Positions 2,287 to 13,702 of a DNA stretch of 64,000 nucleotides are shown in pieces. The notes below the pieces were generated by a model that was given only the letters and a program-made list of their open reading frames with translations, did not search any database and was not told the origin of the DNA. Origin of the DNA: Pirellulales bacterium (GTDB taxonomy: Bacteria; Planctomycetota; Planctomycetia; Pirellulales; PALSA-1355); contig JALHMI010000014.1 of NCBI GenBank assembly GCA_022844125.1, positions 62,001-126,000 on the forward strand. Reading direction: 5' to 3'. Numbering within the stretch: position 1 is the first letter of the stretch; each line of letters starts with the position of its first letter. The translations under genes were made by a program, and so were the position numbers.

Positions 2287-2372
2287 GGCCGGATGGCGAA
2301 ACTGGCAGACGCACGGGACTTAAAATCCCGTGGAGGGAAACCTCCGTGCGGGTTCGATCCCCGCTCCGGCCA
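2287..2372 (+). tRNA. tRNA-Leu(UAA)
   Basis: A complete cloverleaf with long variable arm is visible. Acceptor strands GGCCGGA (2287-2293) and TCCGGCC (2365-2371) pair over 7 bp, followed by discriminator A2372. The anticodon stem is CGGGA/TCCCG around loop CTTAAAA, giving anticodon TAA. The T arm is GCGGG-TTCGATC-CCCGC. CCA is not encoded. The 3' 58 bases also form one end of the 61-bp repeat that bounds the integrated element, so this gene is the integration target and was kept intact. Confidence 0.97.
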
Positions 2373-2375
2373 CTT
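2315..2375 (+). repeat. Attachment site attL inside tRNA-Leu
   Basis: This 61-bp stretch, from the anticodon stem through the tRNA 3' end plus CTT, is repeated without mismatch at 13642-13702. Flanks differ on both sides (C2314 versus A13641; A2376 versus G13703). It adjoins the integrase gene. A tRNA 3'-end identity block is the standard attachment core of tyrosine integrases. Confidence 0.95.
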
Positions 2376-2430: not shown

Positions 2431-3543
2431 TTAGCTCGCCGTGCCGACCTTTGGCACGAATAGCGCCGCAACCGTGGCTTCGTGCTGCGGGGCGAGATTG
2501 ATGTACTTGAGCGTTGTCGTGTAGGACTTGTGTTGCATCTGGCTTTGCAACGCTGCCGCCGTCAGCCGTGACGCGTTCATCGTGGCAAACCCACGCCTAA
2601 AGTCGTGAAAGCCATACGCTCGCCCATCCTCGCGCCGAACCTTGGCCGCTTTCTGAATCTCCGCAAACTCGGCATATAGCGTGCGTCGCGAGTAATTCCA
2701 GGGGAACACCAGCGGGCCGAACCCCTTGATCTTGCGCAGGTGCTCCACGGCCAGCGGATGCAACGGGATTCGATTGTCACGCTTGCCCTTGTTGTCCGCC
2801 GCTCGACTTAACGCGAAGCCAGATTCTAGATTCACGTCATCCCAGCGAAGCGACAGCAGCGAGCCGATACGCCAGCCGGTCATCATCGCGAGCACTAGCA
2901 GAGCTTGCCACCAATCGGCAGCCGTGTAGTGTCCACCATCGGGGCGAGCGGCCGCGTTTGCGTTCGCGTACATACTTTCAAAATGCTCGGGCGTTGCATA
3001 AGTCGGAATCTTGCCCGGTTCGCGTAGGAACTCAAAGCACACTGTTCGCGAGCAGTATCCCCACTTCGCCGCTTTGCGAATCGCCGCGCGAACATGGCGC
3101 AACTCTTTATTCACGGTCGCCGCCGCAACTAGGGGCGTGTCTTTCGCGGCATTCTTGCTCCGCTTGGCGAACTCCGCGCTGCGCTTCGCAACGAACTCAT
3201 CCAGCGTGCGAGCGGAAATTGAATCCACGCGGGCCGGCGAGACTAGCCGCTGGAAGTGGTCCAGGGCTTGAGTGTATGCGCCCCGTGTCGCGGATGACCG
3301 CCCGGGCAAACCACGGTCGAAAAACTCTTTCCGAAAATCTGCCCACGCCTTGCGGCTGGTTGATTCATACGTGCCCGCCGCTAGTTGCCCTTCGATCTTG
3401 CGAGCGAACTTTTGTGCCCGGCTCTTCGCGCCGAGTGATTTCGATTTTCGCTTGCCCTCTGGATCGATCCAGCCGACCGACCACGGCGCATCGTCGCCCA
3501 ACTTTTGCTTTTGCCGGGGATCTTGGAAAAGCCATGCCTTCAT
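2431..3543 (-). CDS. int: Tyrosine-type site-specific integrase
   Basis: 370 aa. The N-terminal arm-binding part (about 1-70) is followed by a core-binding SAM-like domain (about 75-180) and a catalytic domain (about 205-360). Catalytic residues are visible: Arg225 in TGWRIGSLLSLRW, His313 and Arg316 in FHDFRRGF, His338 in MQHKSYTTT and the nucleophile Tyr347 in LKYINL. The stop lies 56 bp from attL, the usual position of an integrase that recombines at the adjacent tRNA. It should catalyse integration and, with a directionality factor (candidates at 12040-12494), excision. Confidence 0.96.
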   Translation of the reverse strand: MKAWLFQDPRQKQKLGDDAPWSVGWIDPEGKRKSKSLGAKSRAQKFARKIEGQLAAGTYESTSRKAWADFRKEFFDRGLPGRSSATRGAYTQALDHFQRLVSPARVDSISARTLDEFVAKRSAEFAKRSKNAAKDTPLVAAATVNKELRHVRAAIRKAAKWGYCSRTVCFEFLREPGKIPTYATPEHFESMYANANAAARPDGGHYTAADWWQALLVLAMMTGWRIGSLLSLRWDDVNLESGFALSRAADNKGKRDNRIPLHPLAVEHLRKIKGFGPLVFPWNYSRRTLYAEFAEIQKAAKVRREDGRAYGFHDFRRGFATMNASRLTAAALQSQMQHKSYTTTLKYINLAPQHEATVAALFVPKVGTAS

Positions 3544-3874: not shown

Positions 3875-4089
3875 CGTGAGCCGCTCCGTGGCTTGCTCAC
3901 TTCAAGCATCGCTGCCAGTTCATCATTTAGAGCGTCGAGCGTGCTTTTGAGTTGCTTCGCGTGCCGTTCGGCTTGCGATAGGCTCGCCTCGACGCTGGAA
4001 ATATCTTGACGCAACCGCTCGACCGTTTTTGCTGGCGTCAGTTGCCGGGCAACGTAGGCTCGCGCGTACTTGTCATCGGGCGCTGTCAT
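3871..4089 (-). CDS. Small coiled-coil protein of the element
   Basis: 72 aa from the ATG at 4089, which overlaps the TGA of the upstream gene as ATGA. An upstream in-frame ATG at 4104 is possible, but the overlap favours 4089. Residues about 20-60 form a heptad-like helix (ERLRQDISSVEASLSQAERH). I do not recognise a family. It sits downstream of the packaging genes, so a structural accessory or regulator is possible, but nothing in the sequence decides this. Confidence 0.65.
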   Translation of the reverse strand: MTAPDDKYARAYVARQLTPAKTVERLRQDISSVEASLSQAERHAKQLKSTLDALNDELAAMLEVSKPRSGSR

Positions 4090-4361
4090 TCTGCCTCGCT
4101 CCATTCACGCAACGACGCGATCAGCTCCACGCGTAGACGTAAAAGGTTCGCCAGATCGTCATTCGTGATCAGTTCCGACTGCGGATAGATTTCACCGAGC
4201 ATCCGGCAGTCAAGCCTATGCATCTCGATCGCAACCAGCACGCGACGTATAGACTCGGCCACGATCTCGCGATGCGACATACGCGCCAGCCGGCGAACGT
4301 CAGCCAGGGCTGTTGCCACGGACCGCGCCCCACTCTCAAGCACCTCATCGCGCGTGATCAT
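4086..4361 (-). CDS. Hypothetical helical protein of the element
   Basis: 91 aa beginning MITRDEVLESG. The ATG at 4361 is preceded by AAGGGGAA, a good Shine-Dalgarno. The same frame continues upstream without stop, but that part is a shadow of the neighbouring gene. The sequence is all-alpha in appearance, without signal peptide or recognised motif. It is translationally coupled to the 72-aa gene by ATGA. Confidence 0.7.
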   Translation of the reverse strand: MITRDEVLESGARSVATALADVRRLARMSHREIVAESIRRVLVAIEMHRLDCRMLGEIYPQSELITNDDLANLLRLRVELIASLREWSEAE

Positions 4362-4435: not shown

Positions 4436-5185
4436 CTACGAGTCGTTTTTCGGAATACTTCGAAACTGCATGTTTTCGGCCACCATTCGCTCCGCATCGT
4501 TCGCGGCTTGCTTGCGTTCGATCTTGGCAATCTCCGTGGTGATCCTGTCCACTTCCGCTTGCCGCTTGGCGAACTGTTTCAGATCCGAGCGAGCCGCTGC
4601 CAGGTGTGCCAGCATCACCGGGCGCTCGTCCAAGGGCGCAGCTTCGATCTTCGCTGGTAACGTGGCCACCAGCGCTTCGCATTCGGCGCGGCGCTTTAGC
4701 TCGGCGTCTTTCAGGGCGACACGGTCGCGAGCATGCGCCAAATTGTTGATCTCACCGCCGAACCCTGATGCCTTCGTGTCGATCCACTTGGCAGCCGTTC
4801 TGAACAGGAAGTTTCGCGCCTGCGAAAGCTGTGTGCTGTGAAAGTTCCGGGCCGTTACTGCCCGCACCTTGGCTGATTCAACGTCGCGCTGACGTTGTTC
4901 GTATACGGTCAGCATTTTGAAAAAAGGATCGTCGGCCAGCGCCTTTTGCGCTTTCGCTAACTCAGCATCAGCAGCTTCGGCGGCTTGCTTCTCCGCGCTG
5001 TTCTTGTCTGCCAGGATTGCGGCACAGCGCCGACGCTCGCCGAGCGTTTCAACATCCTTTTGCACGTCGGCCGGATCGCGATTGTCGCAATCGTCCGGCG
5101 TCAACGTGCCCTTGCAGATTCCCTTTTGATAGCCGAACTGACTCTGCGGGCTCGGGCCGCGTAACCTGTTGAGTAACTCAAGCAT
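4436..5185 (-). CDS. Long helical coiled-coil protein of the element
   Basis: 249 aa from the ATG at 5185, preceded by AAAGGACA at suitable spacing; an ATG ten codons upstream (5215) lacks this support. The N-terminal 50 residues contain three cysteines (CKGTLTPDDCDN and RRRC further on). The rest is strongly helical and rich in Ala, Glu, Lys and Arg. It lies just after the prohead-protease-like gene, where many phages carry a scaffold or capsid gene. The composition is more like a scaffold or size-determination protein than a major capsid protein, but this is inference from position and composition only. Confidence 0.7.
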   Translation of the reverse strand: MLELLNRLRGPSPQSQFGYQKGICKGTLTPDDCDNRDPADVQKDVETLGERRRCAAILADKNSAEKQAAEAADAELAKAQKALADDPFFKMLTVYEQRQRDVESAKVRAVTARNFHSTQLSQARNFLFRTAAKWIDTKASGFGGEINNLAHARDRVALKDAELKRRAECEALVATLPAKIEAAPLDERPVMLAHLAAARSDLKQFAKRQAEVDRITTEIAKIERKQAANDAERMVAENMQFRSIPKNDS

Positions 5186-5227: not shown

Positions 5228-6115
5228 TTATCTGTACCGCTTTACCAGCGGCTCAAATGGATTCACCGAGCCCGTTCGGTCGATCGTTTTGCCACAGACC
5301 AGCGAGACGAACTCACCCGTGCTCATCGGCCGGGCGGATCGCTTGGGAGTCTGCTCAAGTAGGTACTGCCGCAGATCAGGACGTGCCGCGAGAATTTCGT
5401 CCGTCGTCGCCGCGTACACGTCGACCCCTTCGCGCTGTTCAGAGGCCACTGGACTTTTCGTCATTCCGGCAAGTGCCTTGCGGACTTCAGCCAAGCTGAA
5501 AATTTCCGCCATGCCGAGCTTCGCCACGGCGACGCCAGCACGTACGAGCCCATCAATCACGGAGTCATGGACGTTAAGCATCCCCCGCAGCTCTTGCCGC
5601 GTGACGAACTGATCGGCGCCGTCGGCAGAGATCGACTCGTACAGGCCGTTCGTCGTCGCCGCGTCGGCCACCACGTCGACGCTCACCACCTTCTCGATGG
5701 CTTCGACGACAAGCTTGCCGCCGGGGCCGCGACTGGTGCGAGCCTGCACGTTATGCGACAAGCCGACGTTCGCGGGCGAGTGCTCCGCGTCGTAAGCCAG
5801 CATCTCCGCGACAGGATGCTTCGGGTTGAAACGCAAGTCGCCGTACAAGCCGCCGCCCTTGACGTGCACGTTCTCAAGATGGCCGAGCCGGTCCTGGTAA
5901 TCGCGGGGACTACCTGGCGAGCCCTTGGCATGGTTCACGTTCACTTTGGCGCCTTCGTAGAGGGCCGCCGACCGCTCGATTGTCGCCAGCGGATACGTGC
6001 GACCGTTCTTCGATTCCGTTCCAAGAATCTTAACGTTGCGAATGACGTGATTTGCCACGTCGACGCGTCCGCCGCTGAATGCAATTCGTTCGGTGAGAAA
6101 TTCCAGGTTTTTCAT
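5228..6115 (-). CDS. Prohead protease-like protein
   Basis: 295 aa; ATG at 6115 preceded by CGGAGTG. The N-terminal 160 residues resemble phage prohead maturation proteases of the herpesvirus-assemblin/T4 gp21 type. They show SKNGRTYP (36-42), a candidate catalytic His in VNVNH (His62), a candidate nucleophile in NVGLSHNVQ (Ser120) and the conserved strand VVSVDVVADAATTNG (143-157). In phages this enzyme trims scaffold and capsid proteins inside the prohead. The C-terminal 130 residues are helical and could be a self-cleaved scaffold part. Here it lies directly after terL with no portal between and no capsid gene after it, which is unusual. Confidence 0.75.
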   Translation of the reverse strand: MKNLEFLTERIAFSGGRVDVANHVIRNVKILGTESKNGRTYPLATIERSAALYEGAKVNVNHAKGSPGSPRDYQDRLGHLENVHVKGGGLYGDLRFNPKHPVAEMLAYDAEHSPANVGLSHNVQARTSRGPGGKLVVEAIEKVVSVDVVADAATTNGLYESISADGADQFVTRQELRGMLNVHDSVIDGLVRAGVAVAKLGMAEIFSLAEVRKALAGMTKSPVASEQREGVDVYAATTDEILAARPDLRQYLLEQTPKRSARPMSTGEFVSLVCGKTIDRTGSVNPFEPLVKRYR

Positions 6116-6135
6116 AGTTTCACTCCGTTCCAGGG

Positions 6136-7560
6136 TTAAAGATCAAACACAGTTTCGGGCATCGGGGGCAGAGGGGGCTGATACTCTGTGATTGCCGCGA
6201 ACGCGTCGGGCAGGCAAAGCATCAGCGCGCTTGCCCGGTCGCAATGCCCCGAGCGATCGCGCGGCGCACTCGCTTTAACGCCCGTTTGCGTTTCGACCAG
6301 TTGCAGCTTGCCCAGGTCCGCAATCAATTCCGGCTCGCGATAGAGCTTGATTTGCCGGTCGCGAAACACCGTGATAAGCGAAGTCGCAAAACGGCTCAGA
6401 TTCGTCGGAGTCGATGGCGTCTCCCACACTGGATAGCCCGCGCGAATCAGTCGCTGCGCGAGCCCCGCGCAGTTCCACGGGTCAAAATAGCAGCAACGCA
6501 GGCGATACTGCCAGAATGCTTGTTGCACAGCGACTTCGATATCGTCGAGTTGAACATCGGCACCCGGTAGCGGCTTCCACGATTCACAGTTCGCCAAGCG
6601 AATCAGCCCCCGAGCCGGGTCGACGCCAAGCACCACTAACGCGCTATGGTCGCGACGAATCCCCAGATCGAGCCCGGCAATAAATAGATAGTCGGGCTCA
6701 TCGCCATTCATCGGGCCCAGCGTCGTGTCAATTGCCGCTTCGATATCCGCCGCTTCAAGTAGGTCGCCAGCTTGCGAAAGCCATTCGTTGAGCCAGTAGC
6801 GGCGAAACGTGCTCGACGGCAAGAGCCGCTCTTGCTCGGCGAGAATCTTCGGCGTGATCCAGCTTGCTTGCGGACCGTCGAGCCGTGAGAAATACCAATC
6901 AGCATCCGTCCGCGCGGCTTCGCGCACCTTCCATTGCCAACTAGTGCCCATGCCAAGCCCGGCATTCGAGATAATGCAGAGCAAGCACTTCGCTTGCTTC
7001 GCCGCTGAACTGAACAGCGAATGCCAAAGCGACTCGCCAGCATCTTTCCAATGACTTAATTCGTCCGCCACGACGAAATGCGGCAGGAGCCCGAAGCTGG
7101 TGGGCGCATCACTGCTAATGACCGATAACTCGCTGCCCGTGCGTCGGTTCACCACGGCACCGCGTTGCACGTCGAGCACTTCGCCGATCGGGGGATTGAG
7201 CCGACAAAGCGAGTCGATTGCGTTGAGCACCAGCCGCGCTTGATCGGCATCGCCAGCCGCAGCCACGCCACGGATACGCGACGGGGCAGCGTAGATTGCC
7301 CACGAAGCCATTAGCGCAATGTCGCTCGTTTTGCTGTGACCACGGGGCCGCTCAAGGTAGCCTCGCAACGTCGGGGGCGACTTCGGTTTGACGCCTGCCA
7401 CAACTTGCCAGCCAGGGTCGAGCGCGGCGAAGTCTGCCTCTTGCCAGGGGTCGAGCACGTCGACCAGCCGGCGAGGCTCGCCGTTGCATTCCACAATCAG
7501 GCGTTTGCGGAACTCGGCGGGGTCCGCCTTTACGGCCGCTTCGGTCGGTTGCTTGCTCAT
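6136..7560 (-). CDS. terL: Phage terminase large subunit
   Basis: 474 aa. The ATG at 7560 is supported by GGAGG nine bases upstream and by an ATGA overlap with the 43-aa gene; longer readings run into neighbouring genes. The ATPase domain has a variant Walker A RPRGHSKT (71-78), the alternative form seen in some TerL proteins, and Walker B VVADEL (163-168). The nuclease domain has acidic residues in GLDLG (Asp298), YFDPWN (Asp360) and GHCDRAS (Asp441). All motifs needed for packaging and headful or cos cutting appear intact, so the gene is probably functional. It would translocate DNA into a procapsid together with a small subunit. Confidence 0.93.
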   Translation of the reverse strand: MSKQPTEAAVKADPAEFRKRLIVECNGEPRRLVDVLDPWQEADFAALDPGWQVVAGVKPKSPPTLRGYLERPRGHSKTSDIALMASWAIYAAPSRIRGVAAAGDADQARLVLNAIDSLCRLNPPIGEVLDVQRGAVVNRRTGSELSVISSDAPTSFGLLPHFVVADELSHWKDAGESLWHSLFSSAAKQAKCLLCIISNAGLGMGTSWQWKVREAARTDADWYFSRLDGPQASWITPKILAEQERLLPSSTFRRYWLNEWLSQAGDLLEAADIEAAIDTTLGPMNGDEPDYLFIAGLDLGIRRDHSALVVLGVDPARGLIRLANCESWKPLPGADVQLDDIEVAVQQAFWQYRLRCCYFDPWNCAGLAQRLIRAGYPVWETPSTPTNLSRFATSLITVFRDRQIKLYREPELIADLGKLQLVETQTGVKASAPRDRSGHCDRASALMLCLPDAFAAITEYQPPLPPMPETVFDL

Positions 7561-7688
7561 CGTCCGCGCCTCCGTTGCTTGCGTGCTTGCCTTGCTTCGC
7601 GCCGATAGCGCTCGCGGTCGAGCCGGGCTTGCGTGACGTGCGTCGGGTGAAAGCACTTGCCCGCGTTTCTCTTTCGTGTTGTGGTCAC
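7557..7688 (-). CDS. 43-aa arginine-rich protein between terS-like and terL
   Basis: A GTG at 7688 overlaps the upstream TGA (GTGA), and its own TGA overlaps the terL ATG (ATGA). GGGAGG lies eight bases before the GTG. This double coupling plus a strong ribosome binding site is good evidence that the small frame is translated. The product begins MTTTRKRNAGKCFHPTHVTQ and ends in a highly basic tail (KQRRRGR). It may bind DNA or RNA, or act with the terminase; no family is recognised. Confidence 0.75.
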   Translation of the reverse strand: MTTTRKRNAGKCFHPTHVTQARLDRERYRREARQARKQRRRGR

Positions 7689-8332
7689 TGGTTGCCTCCC
7701 TGCGGCTCTGTGTGGCTTGCTGGTGCGTCCGCCTTGCCGAGAGTAGGCTGCCTATTGTTACAACTTGGAGAATTCCAAGTTGTCTTTTCAACCAACTCTC
7801 GCACCGACTTCACTAGGTGGTTGCTTTCGCCTTGCGTCGGGTCGGCTTCCACAATGCGGGCGTCTATGAGCGCCCACGGGTCGGCGTTCGCCTTGCTGCC
7901 GATGTTCAGTTCGCGGATCGCTCGGTCGCGGGCTTCGCTTGCTCGGGCCGTTTCCCGCGCGAAAGCCAGCCGCTCACTAGCGTTCAGCTTGTCGCATTCG
8001 AGCCGCAGCCAGCGGTTTGCCAGTTGGGCGACGCGTTCCCATCGTCCGGCGGTTTGGATAATCGCCGCGTTCACCAGATCGACTTCGCCGTGAGCCGCGA
8101 TCGTGGCAACCGTCAACGCCCGCGTGAGAGCCTGAACACGACGTTGCTCGCGAACCGCATCCTTTGGCCAGCCACCCCCGCGCAAGAAATGCTTGCCAGC
8201 GTTGCCGTTCTCAAGGGGTGCCCCCGGCTTGCTTGTACAAGTCCGCGAAACCTCGCTCGGCGCGTCGGTCGTTGCATGTTCAGTGAATGTCGCGGGGGTC
8301 GTGTCGCCGCAACTCGTTACGTGTTCATTCAT
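7685..8332 (-). CDS. Putative terminase small subunit-like protein
   Basis: 215 aa; ATG at 8332 with AGGGG about 11 bases upstream. The N-terminal 45 residues are Thr/Ser-rich and look disordered. Residues about 55-175 are helical and contain conserved-looking segments (FLRGGGWPKDAVREQRR, GEVDLVNAAIIQTAGRWER). I see no decisive motif. The TerS assignment rests on its place just upstream of terL and a size and helical content compatible with small terminases, which recognise pac or cos DNA. Confidence 0.55.
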   Translation of the reverse strand: MNEHVTSCGDTTPATFTEHATTDAPSEVSRTCTSKPGAPLENGNAGKHFLRGGGWPKDAVREQRRVQALTRALTVATIAAHGEVDLVNAAIIQTAGRWERVAQLANRWLRLECDKLNASERLAFARETARASEARDRAIRELNIGSKANADPWALIDARIVEADPTQGESNHLVKSVRELVEKTTWNSPSCNNRQPTLGKADAPASHTEPQGGNQ

Positions 8333-8444: not shown

Positions 8445-8636
8445 AAAGGACACAAAGGACGCTTGGGACACTTTCCCTAGAGAGTCTCTCCGTGCGCGTG
8501 TGCGTGTGCGTGTATGCAATGGATATAAAAAAGCGTCCTAACCGTCCTTTGGTGCATTGAATCTGTTTGCTGCTGCTGGTTTGCGTCATTTTCAAAAGCG
8601 TCCTAGAAGCGTCCTTTTAAGGACACTTAGGACACT
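8445..8636. repeat. Iteron-like cluster, candidate replication origin
   Basis: The roughly 290 bp between the TerS-like gene and the PrimPol-helicase gene has no convincing gene. It carries nine copies of a GGACRC hexamer (one variant, CCGTCC) in both orientations. Plus-strand copies start at 8448, 8457 and 8466 (9-bp steps), and at 8621 and 8630 (9-bp step). Complementary copies start at 8533 and 8542 (9-bp step), and at 8598 and 8609. An AT-rich tract, GGATATAAAAAAG (8521-8533), lies in the middle. Phased direct repeats with an AT-rich segment next to a replication gene are typical of iteron origins. The last copies overlap the primase stop codon. Confidence 0.6.
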
Positions 8637-11053
8637 TGCCCTCGCCAAGAATGCTCGCGGATGCGTTGTTCCAGGTCGTAAGCGACTGCCGTGAAGCCCG
8701 CCATTGCCCACAGCACGCCGCGCCCATGTGTCCTTGAGGGGTTCAACTTCAGGCCGTGCAACGTGCCCTCGGTCGCCGCTTGGTTGATGGCTCGCATCGC
8801 GCCCGTCGTGCTGGTTTGAATGCCGGTCGCTTTGACGTACCACTCGCGAGCGATCACGTTCGGAATATGAACGGCGTCGCTGTCCGGGTCGTAGCCAAGT
8901 CGCTCTAGCTCTTGGCGAAAAGCATCTTCAATGATCCGGCTTTCCTCGTCGTCCACGTCGACGGCCGCTTGACGCTCCGCGATGACCGTTTGCGCTTCGG
9001 TCGGCTCGGGTAGTCGCGCGAGAATATCGCGTTCCCATTTGCCCCAGCGCGTGTGCTTGGCGAGGGGTTCGGCTGGCCCGTTCAGAAATGCCGCCAGGTC
9101 GCCCATGATTCGCCAGCGGTGCGTCTCGATAAAGTCGCGCAAGCCATCTTCCCAGTCGCCGGTGTGCGTCGGCTTGGCCAGCTTGATAATCACGGAACGC
9201 TGCGCCATATCTTTCGATAGCGCCGGCCCGTTGAGCGTGATGCACCAGAGAAGCGTGTTCGGTCGCGTTCGCTCGCCGGAATACATTTGGTGCCCGCTGA
9301 TCTCGCGGGCCGTGATAAAGGCCTCTAGCTCGCCCCAGGAAAGCTTGTTCTGCTTGACGTTATCAAACCCCACGACGCGCTTGGTCGCGGCCTCTGGCGT
9401 CAGCAGTCGCTTTGCAATGTCTCCTGCCCGGTCATCTTTTGAGATTGCGAACATGCCGCCCATTAGCTGCCCCACGGCTTCGACCAGGGTCGTTTTGCCC
9501 ACGCCTCTGCCATCATCCGACGCGACCACGAATGCCGGCCGTGATCCACCATCGCCGCCCCAAACAGCTGATGCGAACATCGCTTGAATCAAGTCGCGGT
9601 CAATTGGCGTTGCTGGTGCGAAGCGATCCAGCAGGGCGCGAAGATACTCACCGCCGCCAAGCTTGATTTGCGGGTGCCGATAGTAGTGATCGGCGAACGG
9701 CGGAAAGTGCGGGAACGCCTCGATCGCTCGATAGGCTTGTGCCGTCCGTTGCAGCTCCGCGAACACTTCGCCGCGCGAAACGCAGCCCGTCGACTTGTAC
9801 CATTCGACGGCGGCCGTGCTCGACAGCCACCCGAACAACTGATCGATCTTGGTGAAGTGCCCCAGGCCGTGTGCGGGATCGTCGATAAACAGAGTCGCGC
9901 CAACTCGACGCGGCCAGCCGCCCGTGATTTGCTGAATGTTGCCCAGGATTTCGGCGAGCGATTTGGGGATCGTCTCTTGATCTTGCCCCTCGCCGACGCG
10001 TTCAGCGTTCGACAGTACGCCCTTCTTTAATTCCGCAAAATTTTGCGGCTTTTCTGCCGGCTTGCGTTTACCCCGCGTTGCCGGTGCCCGTTCCGCAACC
10101 AGCAAGTGCCCGCGTTCGCCGTCTGCCCGCATCGCGCTGGCGATCTTGTGCTCTAGATCGTGATCGCCCCACGGCGGTTCGCAGCGTTCGTTGTACTCGC
10201 GCAGCAAGTCGAGCGCGTCATCGGGCCCCAGGTCGAAACCGATGCATAGAGCGCAGGCCACGGCGAACGTCCGATCATGCCCACCCGAGCCGCTAATGGC
10301 CGCGGGCATTTTCGCGATGTACTTGCGGGCGCGTTCGAGTCGCTTGCTGGAAATTGGTCCCAATTGGGACGAATTAGGCCGGTCGATAATCCCGGCAGAA
10401 TTGCCGGAATTAGGTCGGCTGCTAATTCCGGAATATTTTCCGGGATTGGAACCTGTGCAATTTTTTGCACAAGTCCGCTCCGGCCAGTAGCGATTCACCA
10501 GCGCCGTCAGTTCGGCTTGCCGTTCTTGCGGCTCACTCGGGCAGCCGTCGAGAATCAATCCCGTGACCGCGAAGTATCGGCCACGATCATAGACCTCGAT
10601 CGCTGGCGACTTGTCCGCGATGCGTTCCACTTCCGGCAATAGTTTTTTCTTGCCGCTCGACAGCGGAGATTCGCCGCGCAGGAACAACTTGACGCCCGTT
10701 TGGCTCGGGCTGATTTCGGTGTACGTATCAAACTGCTGGATTACTTCTCGCGCCCAGTTCGCAATCTCGCCAGTCTGCGGATTTCGGCAGCCGTCCAGAT
10801 CCATGCCGACCAGCCCGCCGCCCGCTACGAACACGAAGCCAGGCCCGTCGTATCCTTCGGCCCCCGCTGCTGATTTGAAACCAGTCCAGGTGTTTGCCGC
10901 CGTGGAACTAGCACGCTTGCCGGTCGCCGGGCTATACGGAACTTTCGTCGCCGCGCCGTCATCGCGCGATTCGCTGCGCCACGCGACCCATTGATCGAGT
11001 TGACGCAGCGTGTCGGGCACGTTTTGCAGCGGGTTAGTCGGTGCGTCGATCAC
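8627..11053 (-). CDS. PrimPol-helicase fusion, replication protein of the element
   Basis: 808 aa from a GTG at 11053 that overlaps the preceding TGA as GTGA; longer in-frame readings cross the upstream genes. Residues about 10-190 are an archaeo-eukaryotic-type primase-polymerase domain similar to phage NrS-1 polymerase: metal site GMDLDGC (83-89), SPSQTG (115-120), YFAVTG (160-165). Residues 240-312 resemble a PriCT helical domain. Residues about 480-700 form a helicase-like ATPase with Walker A DGRGVGKTT (514-522) and Walker B VVGFDN (560-565). The C-terminal 100 residues may be a winged-helix DNA-binding part. It probably primes and unwinds at a dedicated origin, as P4 alpha and PICI Rep proteins do. 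Confidence 0.88.
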   Translation of the reverse strand: MIDAPTNPLQNVPDTLRQLDQWVAWRSESRDDGAATKVPYSPATGKRASSTAANTWTGFKSAAGAEGYDGPGFVFVAGGGLVGMDLDGCRNPQTGEIANWAREVIQQFDTYTEISPSQTGVKLFLRGESPLSSGKKKLLPEVERIADKSPAIEVYDRGRYFAVTGLILDGCPSEPQERQAELTALVNRYWPERTCAKNCTGSNPGKYSGISSRPNSGNSAGIIDRPNSSQLGPISSKRLERARKYIAKMPAAISGSGGHDRTFAVACALCIGFDLGPDDALDLLREYNERCEPPWGDHDLEHKIASAMRADGERGHLLVAERAPATRGKRKPAEKPQNFAELKKGVLSNAERVGEGQDQETIPKSLAEILGNIQQITGGWPRRVGATLFIDDPAHGLGHFTKIDQLFGWLSSTAAVEWYKSTGCVSRGEVFAELQRTAQAYRAIEAFPHFPPFADHYYRHPQIKLGGGEYLRALLDRFAPATPIDRDLIQAMFASAVWGGDGGSRPAFVVASDDGRGVGKTTLVEAVGQLMGGMFAISKDDRAGDIAKRLLTPEAATKRVVGFDNVKQNKLSWGELEAFITAREISGHQMYSGERTRPNTLLWCITLNGPALSKDMAQRSVIIKLAKPTHTGDWEDGLRDFIETHRWRIMGDLAAFLNGPAEPLAKHTRWGKWERDILARLPEPTEAQTVIAERQAAVDVDDEESRIIEDAFRQELERLGYDPDSDAVHIPNVIAREWYVKATGIQTSTTGAMRAINQAATEGTLHGLKLNPSRTHGRGVLWAMAGFTAVAYDLEQRIREHSWRGQVS
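10357..10471. other. Run of five palindromes inside the PrimPol gene
   Basis: In 115 bp there are: a perfect 14-bp palindrome GTCCCAATTGGGAC (10357-10370); CCGGCA/TGCCGG with a 4-base loop (10392-10407); ATTCCGGAAT (10425-10434); an overlapping CCGGAA/TTCCGG hairpin (10428-10443); and TGTGCAA/TTGCACA with a TTTT loop (10454-10471). The segment encodes a Ser/Asn/Gly-rich linker between the primase and PriCT-like domains, so it is free of strong protein constraint. Confidence 0.75.
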
Positions 11054-11304
11054 TTCGCGATTCCTTGCTTTCCGGTTCCGGGGTAGTAGGTCCGCGTCGA
11101 GCCGCCAGCCGCGATGGCTTCGTTGTCCAGGTGAGCGCGGACACGATCGACGCTGCTTGCCATCTTCAATGCGTTGCGTCCGACGCTCGACGCTTTCGGG
11201 TGCGTGTTCGCAATCTCGCCGCCGAGTGTCAGCAGTCGGTTTCGAATCTCGAACAACTCCGCGCCAATCCGTTCGTGATCGGTGAGTGTCAGTCGCTTGT
11301 TCAT
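11050..11304 (-). CDS. 84-aa hypothetical protein of the replication operon
   Basis: Start ATG 11304 overlaps the stop of the ERCC4 gene (ATGA) and its TGA overlaps the primase GTG. The product begins MNKRLTLTDHERIG and is helical through residue 65. No family is recognised. Its place between a nuclease and the primase-helicase suggests a replication accessory role, which is inference only. Confidence 0.75.
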   Translation of the reverse strand: MNKRLTLTDHERIGAELFEIRNRLLTLGGEIANTHPKASSVGRNALKMASSVDRVRAHLDNEAIAAGGSTRTYYPGTGKQGIAK

Positions 11305-11792
11305 AGCACGGGTTCCACAATGTTCTGATGAAACGTCCGCAGCTCGCGCCAACGACGCCGAGCCGCACTAAACAGAATGCGAGCCGTCGCACGCTGCGCG
11401 GCCTCGCGATCGCCAGCAAACAAAAACGGCACGCCCCCGCCGATCCACGACAGGACCGATCCCGTTGCCGCTTGTGGCGTGAGCTTCGATCGCCAGTCGC
11501 CCGTCTCAAGATCGAGCCAACTAGCCTCGACCACGACGCATCGCGTTGGATACGCCAGCAGCCGTTGCAACTCACGTTCAAAGCGTTCACGTTCAACGCC
11601 GCAACATGCGACCAGATCGGGGAGCGATTTCCGCTCGATCGCGACAAGATGTTCCAGGCCACGAATCGAATAGTCGCCAGCCTGCAAAGTGCCGGGCTCG
11701 ATATTGAGCGGTGCCAGGTCAAACGCGAGTTGTTCGCGCGTGTCGACGATCGCCGTAACTTGCTCGGGTTTCAGTTCCGCGAGGAGCTTCAC
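11301..11792 (-). CDS. ERCC4-domain nuclease
   Basis: 163 aa. The XPF/ERCC4 nuclease core is clear: IVDTREQ (15-21), GDYS (39-42) and VAIERKSLPDL (50-60), matching the GDX(n)ERKXXXD signature. The C-terminal part (about 105-160) is helical and lacks an obvious helix-hairpin-helix pair, so this is a compact stand-alone nuclease. The family cuts branched or flap DNA. Here it lies in a replication operon, suggesting a job in processing replication or recombination intermediates. It overlaps both neighbours by four bases (ATGA). Confidence 0.9.
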   Translation of the reverse strand: MKLLAELKPEQVTAIVDTREQLAFDLAPLNIEPGTLQAGDYSIRGLEHLVAIERKSLPDLVACCGVERERFERELQRLLAYPTRCVVVEASWLDLETGDWRSKLTPQAATGSVLSWIGGGVPFLFAGDREAAQRATARILFSAARRRWRELRTFHQNIVEPVL

Positions 11793-12043
11793 AGCGAGCC
11801 TCCCGTGCGAGACTCGAAAACGAGTCGCAAGTAAGCGAGAATAACGGGATGGAAGGGCCGAAGTCGCTCATTGCGATCAATCAGCTTCAGCGCCCGAATT
11901 GAAGCGAGCCGCCAATGTTGCTCTTGAGCGCCGGGCCTCGCGGGCATTCGCTGGATTAGCCACGACTCAAGTTCAAGCAACCGATGCTGGATCACAGCGG
12001 CGTCGCGAAAACGCAAGAGTAGGTCATCTTCCGGCGCGGTCAT
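11789..12043 (-). CDS. 84-aa hypothetical protein of the replication operon
   Basis: Begins MTAPEDDLLLRFRDAAVIQH; ATG 12043 overlaps the previous stop (ATGA) and its own stop overlaps the ERCC4 start. It is helical and rich in Leu and Arg. No recognised family or motif. Coding status is supported mainly by the overlapping start and stop signals on both sides. Confidence 0.75.
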   Translation of the reverse strand: MTAPEDDLLLRFRDAAVIQHRLLELESWLIQRMPARPGAQEQHWRLASIRALKLIDRNERLRPFHPVILAYLRLVFESRTGGSL

Positions 12044-12303
12044 CGGTCCCCCAAAAATCGCAGTAACTCACCGCGGCTGTAGATGATTTTTTTGCCTAAC
12101 AATCGGCCGTGAATCTTGCCGTCGAGCCTCGCATCGCGCAAAACGTGCTTAGGCACGCCGTAGAGCGCCGCGGCCTCGGCCTCGGGATATCCCAGCCGGT
12201 CGTCGAGCTTGGCTTCATCGGCTTTGATCTCGGCGATCGTGGCGCGAACCACGGCAGTAATCAGCGGTTTCAGATCATCGATGTCGCGCGCGTCGAGCCT
12301 CAT
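12040..12303 (-). CDS. Excisionase-type HTH protein (2)
   Basis: 87 aa. Residues about 38-85 form a winged helix-turn-helix of the excisionase/MerR-like HTH_17 type (YPEAEAAALYGVPKHVLRDA, then a wing KIIYSRGELLRFL). The N-terminal 35 residues are an acidic helix. It may act as recombination directionality factor for the integrase or as an operon regulator. ATGA overlap on both sides shows it is co-translated with its neighbours. Confidence 0.8.
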   Translation of the reverse strand: MRLDARDIDDLKPLITAVVRATIAEIKADEAKLDDRLGYPEAEAAALYGVPKHVLRDARLDGKIHGRLLGKKIIYSRGELLRFLGDR

Positions 12304-12545: not shown

Positions 12546-13343
12546 CTAGATGCAACTATCCGCAATATAGCGAGCCGCGAGTGCTTTCCCCTTTTCCGTA
12601 AGTGCTGCTCCCGACTTCGGACCTTGGGGACGATCGCACCAGCCTTTGCTTATCATGCGTTTCACAATGTCAGTGATGGTCCGATCGCTCGGTGCCGTTT
12701 TGGGGTTCTCCTTCCGCAAGCGCTCTTCGATGGCGTTATTCGTCATCGTGTGGCCAGCATCGAGAAGTGCCCGCAAGACCATCGCTTCGTGCTTACCAGG
12801 CGTTTCGACCTCGTTGTCCTCGACCCTCGATTCGCTCGCTGCTTCGCGCTCACTTGCGATATCGTGCAGGACGGCTGATTCCAGCACTAGCCGTTGTGCG
12901 ATTCGGCGTGCCGGAACTTCCCGGGTACGAGCCAGGGCGTTCCATATATCCTGCCAGTGATCGCGCACAAGCATTATTCGCAGCCCGCCGTGACGGTCCG
13001 CAGAAGCGGGCCCGGGCGTTTCGATTTCGCACGCTTCGCGCACGCAATGCCACTTTGCTCTCGCATGGAAAACGGCAGCCTCATACGCTGAAACAGCCGG
13101 CGTTGTGGTCTCGAACTGCCCCAGCCGCACCGCCGCCTCGATCAGTTCGCCACGGAAGTGCTCAACTTCGTAGAACAATTTCTGCATCTTCGAGCGAATT
13201 TCGGACACGAACGCCGTGAACTCCACGGGGTTCCAGCTCAGCCCGTCGCCCGTTGCGGCCGCCGTCTGAAGGCAACATGCAGAATCGGCTAGCTTAGCGT
13301 GCTCCCGCCAATTGTCGGCCAAAGCCCAGAGTGGGTCGCCCAT
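12546..13343 (-). CDS. Winged-helix protein, probable regulator of the element
   Basis: 265 aa, first gene next to attR. Residues 1-165 are helical with no family I recognise. Residues about 183-262 form a winged-helix domain: KHEAMVLRALLDAGHTMTNN, then ITDIVKRMISKGWCDRP, then a wing GAALTEKGK. This is typical of MarR/ArsR-like folds. Its position as the outermost gene suggests a lysogeny or induction regulator. It is separated from the HTH operon by about 51 bp that hold a palindromic site. Confidence 0.7.
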   Translation of the reverse strand: MGDPLWALADNWREHAKLADSACCLQTAAATGDGLSWNPVEFTAFVSEIRSKMQKLFYEVEHFRGELIEAAVRLGQFETTTPAVSAYEAAVFHARAKWHCVREACEIETPGPASADRHGGLRIMLVRDHWQDIWNALARTREVPARRIAQRLVLESAVLHDIASEREAASESRVEDNEVETPGKHEAMVLRALLDAGHTMTNNAIEERLRKENPKTAPSDRTITDIVKRMISKGWCDRPQGPKSGAALTEKGKALAARYIADSCI

Positions 13344-13641: not shown

Positions 13642-13702
13642 GGGACTTAAAATCCCGTGGAGGGAAACCTCCGTGCGGGTTCGATCCCCGCTCCGGCCAC
13701 TT
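13642..13702 (+). repeat. Attachment site attR, tRNA-Leu 3' fragment
   Basis: Exact second copy of the 61-bp block. Here the 5' half of the tRNA is missing (preceded by GGGTAAGGTA), so it is not a functional tRNA. It marks the distal boundary of the element. Confidence 0.95.

Follow-up and report, generated by a model that had tools for sequence, protein, structure and literature searches.

A tRNA-Leu-integrated element of a Pirellulales bacterium, very probably a phage satellite, encodes a terminase and a predicted T4 gp21-like prohead protease with no recognised capsid or portal gene

We describe an 11.3-kb integrase element in a 64,000-nucleotide stretch of Pirellulales DNA (the window, by which we mean the whole stretch analysed), in which the gene for a terminase large subunit (TerL) is followed directly by that for a predicted prohead protease. 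The element is very probably an integrated phage satellite. The fuller reading, that it packages into heads of another element and brings to them the protease and possibly a helical scaffold, draws on sequence comparison and structure models, and we put its chances at about even.

The ends of the element are marked by a 61-bp perfect direct repeat, the two copies of which are 11,327 bp apart; the first lies inside the 3′ part of a tRNA-Leu gene at 2287-2373 (ARAGORN). With both ends intact, this is a complete mobile element at tRNA-Leu. Its features, in window coordinates, are as follows.

2315..2375, plus strand: att copy, 61 bp; perfect direct repeat, within tRNA-Leu
2431..3543, minus strand: tyrosine integrase, 370 aa (Pfam Phage_integrase, 2.1e-14)
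4086..4361, minus strand: 91-aa protein, no assigned function (gene call; no PHROG match)
4436..5185, minus strand: 249-aa protein, all-helical in its AlphaFold2 model, candidate scaffold; relative in locus L034
5228..6115, minus strand: 295-aa predicted prohead protease, T4 gp21-like fold (Foldseek and VIA-align of the model)
6136..7560, minus strand: terminase large subunit (TerL), 474 aa (Pfam 4.8e-6, PHROG 1.1e-27)
7685..8332, minus strand: 215-aa probable small terminase subunit (TerS), from its position upstream of TerL, which relatives share
8627..11053, minus strand: primase/helicase, 808 aa (PHROG DNA primase/helicase, 2.1e-41, scanned from an upstream start)
11301..11792, minus strand: ERCC4-type nuclease, 163 aa (Pfam ERCC4, 1.1e-7)
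12040..12303, minus strand: AlpA-like HTH protein, 87 aa (Pfam HTH_17, 3.4e-6)
12546..13343, minus strand: 265-aa protein, no assigned function (gene call; no NCBIfam match)
13642..13702, plus strand: att copy, 61 bp; perfect direct repeat

The small ORFs of the element that have no assigned function encode 91, 84, 215 and 265 aa. Family searches over the whole element recognised no portal, capsid or tail gene between the repeats; within it neither a major capsid nor a portal family was matched in Pfam or PHROG, and capsid and portal profiles found no match in the contig that holds the window (C14). Because the ends are known from the perfect repeats, the lack of a recognisable portal or capsid gene is genuine. 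An earlier note on this DNA had proposed a satellite with TerL, a protease-like gene and a coiled-coil protein in succession and with neither portal nor capsid; the gene coordinates are correct, the third protein is helical in its model, the missing genes are borne out, and a satellite-like element is supported. Its 11.3-kb length, 61-bp att repeats, integrase and primase are general traits of phage satellites, for which the abstract of PMC13376191 gives sizes of about 7-20 kb.

TerL was recognised by both Pfam (TerL_ATPase, above the family cut-off) and PHROG (terminase large subunit). It is separated by 20 bp (6116-6135) from the protease gene, which starts with an ATG at 6115 on the same (minus) strand. 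In a phage database TerL matches 28 records, with 22-25% identity among the matches listed, phiC31-type phages included. At the level of the order 28 of 396 genomes encode its family and at that of the phylum 24 of 392; it spans several kinds of small element, some of which carry an HK97-type capsid and a portal. The latter (L094, L095, L098 and L100) combine a TerS-like gene, TerL, capsid and portal, with no protease or tail recognised. Two further TerL-bearing, satellite-like elements, both without the protease, reside in the window's own genome: L088 on contig C17 and L102 on contig C10, L102 having 47-bp repeats 14.9 kb apart. The 215-aa protein is a probable TerS, since its relatives hold the same position upstream of TerL in other elements; a TerS family was matched by 1 of the 16 members of its family (E 0.0075) and not by the window's own protein. 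With TerL and the probable TerS, the element would package its own DNA.

Sequence searches of Pfam, NCBIfam and the PDB gave no match to the 295-aa protein. None of the 70 members of its family matches a protease model, its PHROG match, to a family without assigned function, is weak (7.5e-8), and the phage database returned no match to it or to the 249-aa helical protein. Its assignment comes from a structure model built from 70 sequences (pLDDT 79, pTM 0.54). In a Foldseek search of the PDB the top match was 5jbl, T4 gp21 (E 9.2e-8), and all three matches with E<0.001 were chains of that entry; VIA-align gave 5jbl a Z of 13.6 over 146 residues (rmsd 3.0), followed by a herpesvirus protease with a Z of 5.8. 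On this model the protein is almost certainly a prohead protease of the T4 gp21/assemblin fold. S120 and H121 do not vary among the 70 relatives, conservation of H62 is 90% or higher, and all three are present in the window's protein; from the family pattern we infer that they have a catalytic role. The comparison thus returned a prohead protease and not a fold of some other kind, in agreement with the earlier note. That note had also drawn its parallel with HK97-like phages: the order TerL-portal-protease-decoration-capsid does hold in related phages, but the protease fold is gp21/assemblin-like and the portal lambda-type. A stretch of the protease tail (residues 165-220) that by eye resembled an inserted excisionase HTH was rejected as such, having no Pfam match and forming one long helix in the model.

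We searched 196 related genomes with protease, capsid and portal profiles and compared positions within a 15-kb radius. The protease is encoded in 107 of the 196 by profile, or 108 by single sequence, mostly once each, and its usual setting is a phage-head cluster of TerS, TerL, lambda-type portal, protease, decoration protein and capsid. The 124 protease rows reduce to 120 places, 112 of which have a capsid or portal within 15 kb (both in 75, capsid only in 30, portal only in 7). The other 8 have neither: the window, L034 (G002:C1), L042 (G009:C1:2358715), L230 (G015:C8), L245 (G062:C11:249627; its protease divergent, E 6.5e-6), L232 (G076:C108), L103 (G110:C6) and L104 (G138:C43; a 7.1-kb contig with the upstream side unseen). 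Att-like repeats of 44, 25 and 24 bp were found at L034, L042 and L103, spaced 9.8, 13.0 and 11.2 kb apart, respectively; at L230 and L232 the fetched stretches hold none of at least 16 bp. TerL is absent from L042, where the protease also lacks a clear helical partner. Locus L087, considered as a further capsid-less case with an S78-like protease, was dropped when an HK97-type capsid gene proved to be present.

The pair occurs in other genomes too, a check that the earlier note had proposed, and L034 repeats the full order of TerL, protease and helical protein, with 53% identity in TerL and a different replication module. Since several genomes have the protease gene with neither capsid nor portal nearby, the arrangement does not go back to one random deletion, which that note had also considered unlikely. 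The elements that bear the protease and lack a capsid do not form one group in the TerL tree: the window stands with L034, and L103 with L104 in another place. Viral contigs gave a similar background: among the best 80 loci kept from 253 protease relatives, 79 have portal and/or capsid in the stretch fetched (both 64, portal only 6, capsid only 9), and the single locus with neither, L159, lies in a stretch where gene calling failed. Judged against these gene neighbourhoods, the missing portal and capsid beside the window's protease are more than chance.

The 249-aa protein was modelled by AlphaFold2 from two sequences as helices only (pLDDT 77, pTM 0.39). Matches in the PDB are to helical structures of a generic kind (best Z 9.1), and a search of BFVD gave no match at E 0.001; one BFVD row named major capsid protein (E 0.10, 108 columns) was taken as a helix match. 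Since the model is all helix, the protein is predicted to be neither an HK97-type capsid nor a portal, and a structure match to a capsid or portal, which the earlier note would have taken as a refutation, was not obtained. Among the 196 genomes it is present only in the window's and in G002, where the L034 relative holds the same position with 30% identity. From the model, a role as scaffold can be proposed tentatively. Helical proteins likewise adjoin the protease at L230 and L232, and an iterated search ties these together with those of L090, L101 and L099. We do not claim a single family of satellite helical proteins, as those of the window and L034 are linked to the others only marginally (profile comparison, 7% probability). 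Short proteins near the protease at L042 (8823-9251), L230 (10424-10612) and L232 (9871-10122) share, by eye, the motif AW..FCD....WP and possibly form a small satellite family.

A matching capsid is encoded elsewhere in the genome in 8 of 8 capsid-less cases, as against 111 of the 196 genomes overall. The chance of this is 0.566^8 = 0.011, or 0.566^5 = 0.058 at 5 lineages, and because the 8 cases represent about 5 lineages the co-occurrence is suggestive only. In 7 of these 8 genomes a single head cluster is the only capsid match among the matches listed. The window's genome has two clusters with the same protease family, on contigs C27 and C1, to which the window's protease is 59% and 38% identical, respectively, over roughly the first 175 residues. 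Such similarity to a resident cluster makes shared substrates plausible, and the protease might then be a weapon, which inside helper procapsids would cleave scaffold or coat at the wrong time and lower the yield of the helper. This is unlikely, we think, given that the gene lies next to the TerL of the element itself within a single run of genes, an arrangement that suits packaging of its own DNA. The earlier note had proposed that a satellite protease might, through the helper's scaffold, alter capsid size or stop the helper from maturing; both would be possible effects.

Flanks of the head cluster were compared, on one or both sides, in 31 genomes selected for their long contigs, among them the window's own. 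A conserved host flank, defined as at least 2 of five markers (Exo_endo_phos, MoaB-like, HEAT-repeat, a 126-aa protein and a 451-aa protein) beside the cluster, was found in 19 of the 31 (families f1, f2, f3, f7 and f13), at loci that include L032/L250 (C27 of the window's genome), L035/L269, L038/L254, L037/L275, L043/L271 and L289. Fewer markers were seen in the other 12 (G009, G019, G026, G006, G021, G098, G022, G012, G054, G105, G125 and G008), with a single one in G026. The cluster is at the conserved locus both in G002 and in the window's genome. Identities to the window's genome in G002, G004, G039, G043 and G080 are 86, 75, 75, 76 and 72% for the capsid and 60-82, 45-66, 44-64, 42-70 and 33-51% for the flank genes. 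Within-genus dN/dS is 0.05-0.27 (18 gene pairs from three genome pairs), with dS often near saturation. These values fit a cluster that diverges in step with host genes through long vertical inheritance under selection, as in gene transfer agents (GTAs), and its locus is the same in 19 of 31 genomes; from its genes, it is a candidate for a GTA-like element in this order. Most head clusters are accompanied by a gene that fuses an ABC-type ATPase with a GNAT acetyltransferase (L032 14222-15331 and relatives).

One viral contig (L106/L186) is a full phage with relatives of both TerL and the protease. When the protease tree was restricted to 39 of its 97 rows, with most long branches left out, the window, this phage and L034 formed one group (support 96/82), and the test did not reject a topology that keeps L034 with the window (p 0.33); the full tree is limited by the long branches L103, L104 and L091. 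The satellite pair and the phage therefore share ancestry and, because L106/L186 has both relatives, the pair may have arisen when such a phage lost its portal and capsid but retained these two genes. The existence of this phage also lends itself to reading the element as a prophage in decay, its portal and capsid gone and its TerL-protease pair kept as a neutral remainder. Decay of this kind is improbable where the att repeats are perfect and the integrase, the replication gene and the active-site region intact. G002 keeps the same gene order at 53% TerL identity beside a different replication module, and six more capsid-less cases exist besides these two.

The several small ORFs with no assigned function could be taken to mean that the element is a small self-sufficient virus with a coat and portal that have diverged beyond recognition. 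This is very unlikely: the 249-aa model is all helix, and the other unassigned proteins (91, 84, 215 and 265 aa) are, judged by size, small for a portal and coat. Nine loci of a related family, f21 (L213-L215, L217-L221 and L226), carry a TerL relative beside an ABC-GNAT gene, and nothing in the stretch is labelled portal or capsid; this relative is perhaps a scattered or domesticated packaging gene. Domestication of the window's own TerL-protease pair by the host for a role other than packaging, for which these loci offer a precedent, is extremely unlikely in a mobile element with intact ends, as opposed to a fixed host locus.

We return to the satellite reading. Upon induction the element would replicate, and its TerL and probable TerS would load its DNA into heads made elsewhere. 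As it has neither coat nor portal, the shell must come from another source, and both proteins would most naturally be supplied by a head cluster, or a phage, whose protease belongs to this family; that the element uses heads of these related types is somewhat favoured. That the element specifically parasitises the vertically inherited, GTA-like cluster through its own terminase, protease and scaffold is rather unlikely. The borrowed heads would be assembled and matured by its protease and separate helical scaffold. The tail of the protease varies in length among helper-type clusters, is helical-looking in most and may be the helper's scaffold; if so, a scaffold-swapping satellite would need a tail-free protease as well, a plausible reason for it to bring one of its own. 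Replacement of the helper's protease-plus-scaffold by a protease and a separate scaffold of the satellite's own is the least supported step of this scheme. Loss of the tail in satellites only is weakened as a pattern, and with it the scaffold-swap argument, because short protease tails occur in capsid-bearing clusters too (L037 and L046).

We found no satellite with TerL and protease and without coat and portal in the open-licence literature, and we know of no described satellite that combines these features. Among the papers that our searches of this literature listed, none deals with planctomycete satellites, a planctomycete GTA or satellites of GTAs; the two planctomycete passages of PMC7947584 concern a Zavarzinella prophage TerL. 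The design suggested here, a satellite with its own packaging motor and maturation protease and a borrowed shell and portal, is not described in the papers that we consulted. Should satellite heads depend on the protease, it would mark the steps of assembly that a satellite has to provide for itself; should the conserved cluster be the source of the heads, the element would parasitise a GTA-like system. The cluster itself appears to be an undescribed, vertically inherited phage-head cluster in a bacterial order.

Among known systems, the predicted protease shares its fold with T4 gp21 and herpesvirus assemblin, from which it differs in its identity of about 20%, its long helical tail and the absence of its capsid. 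The candidate helper cluster, and not the element, resembles GTAs, with head genes at a fixed host locus, host-paced divergence and purifying selection; it differs in being known here from genes alone, GTA-like by locus and divergence. The cf-PICIs, as passages of PMC10690885 describe them, are integrated satellites that encode capsid, portal, connectors, head maturation protease and terminase. The window's element has in common with them TerL and a predicted head maturation protease; capsid, portal and connectors are theirs and were not recognised in it, and because it is without capsid and portal it is not a cf-PICI. P4, SaPI and PLE, in the relevant passages of PMC10945586, borrow the coat and contribute a scaffold or a variant coat protein (Sid, CpmB, TcaP). 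The element would likewise borrow its coat, and the 249-aa candidate, if its modelled form is a guide, would parallel their satellite scaffold. To our knowledge P4, SaPI and PLE satellites encode neither TerL nor a prohead protease, whereas the window's element has TerL together with a predicted prohead protease.
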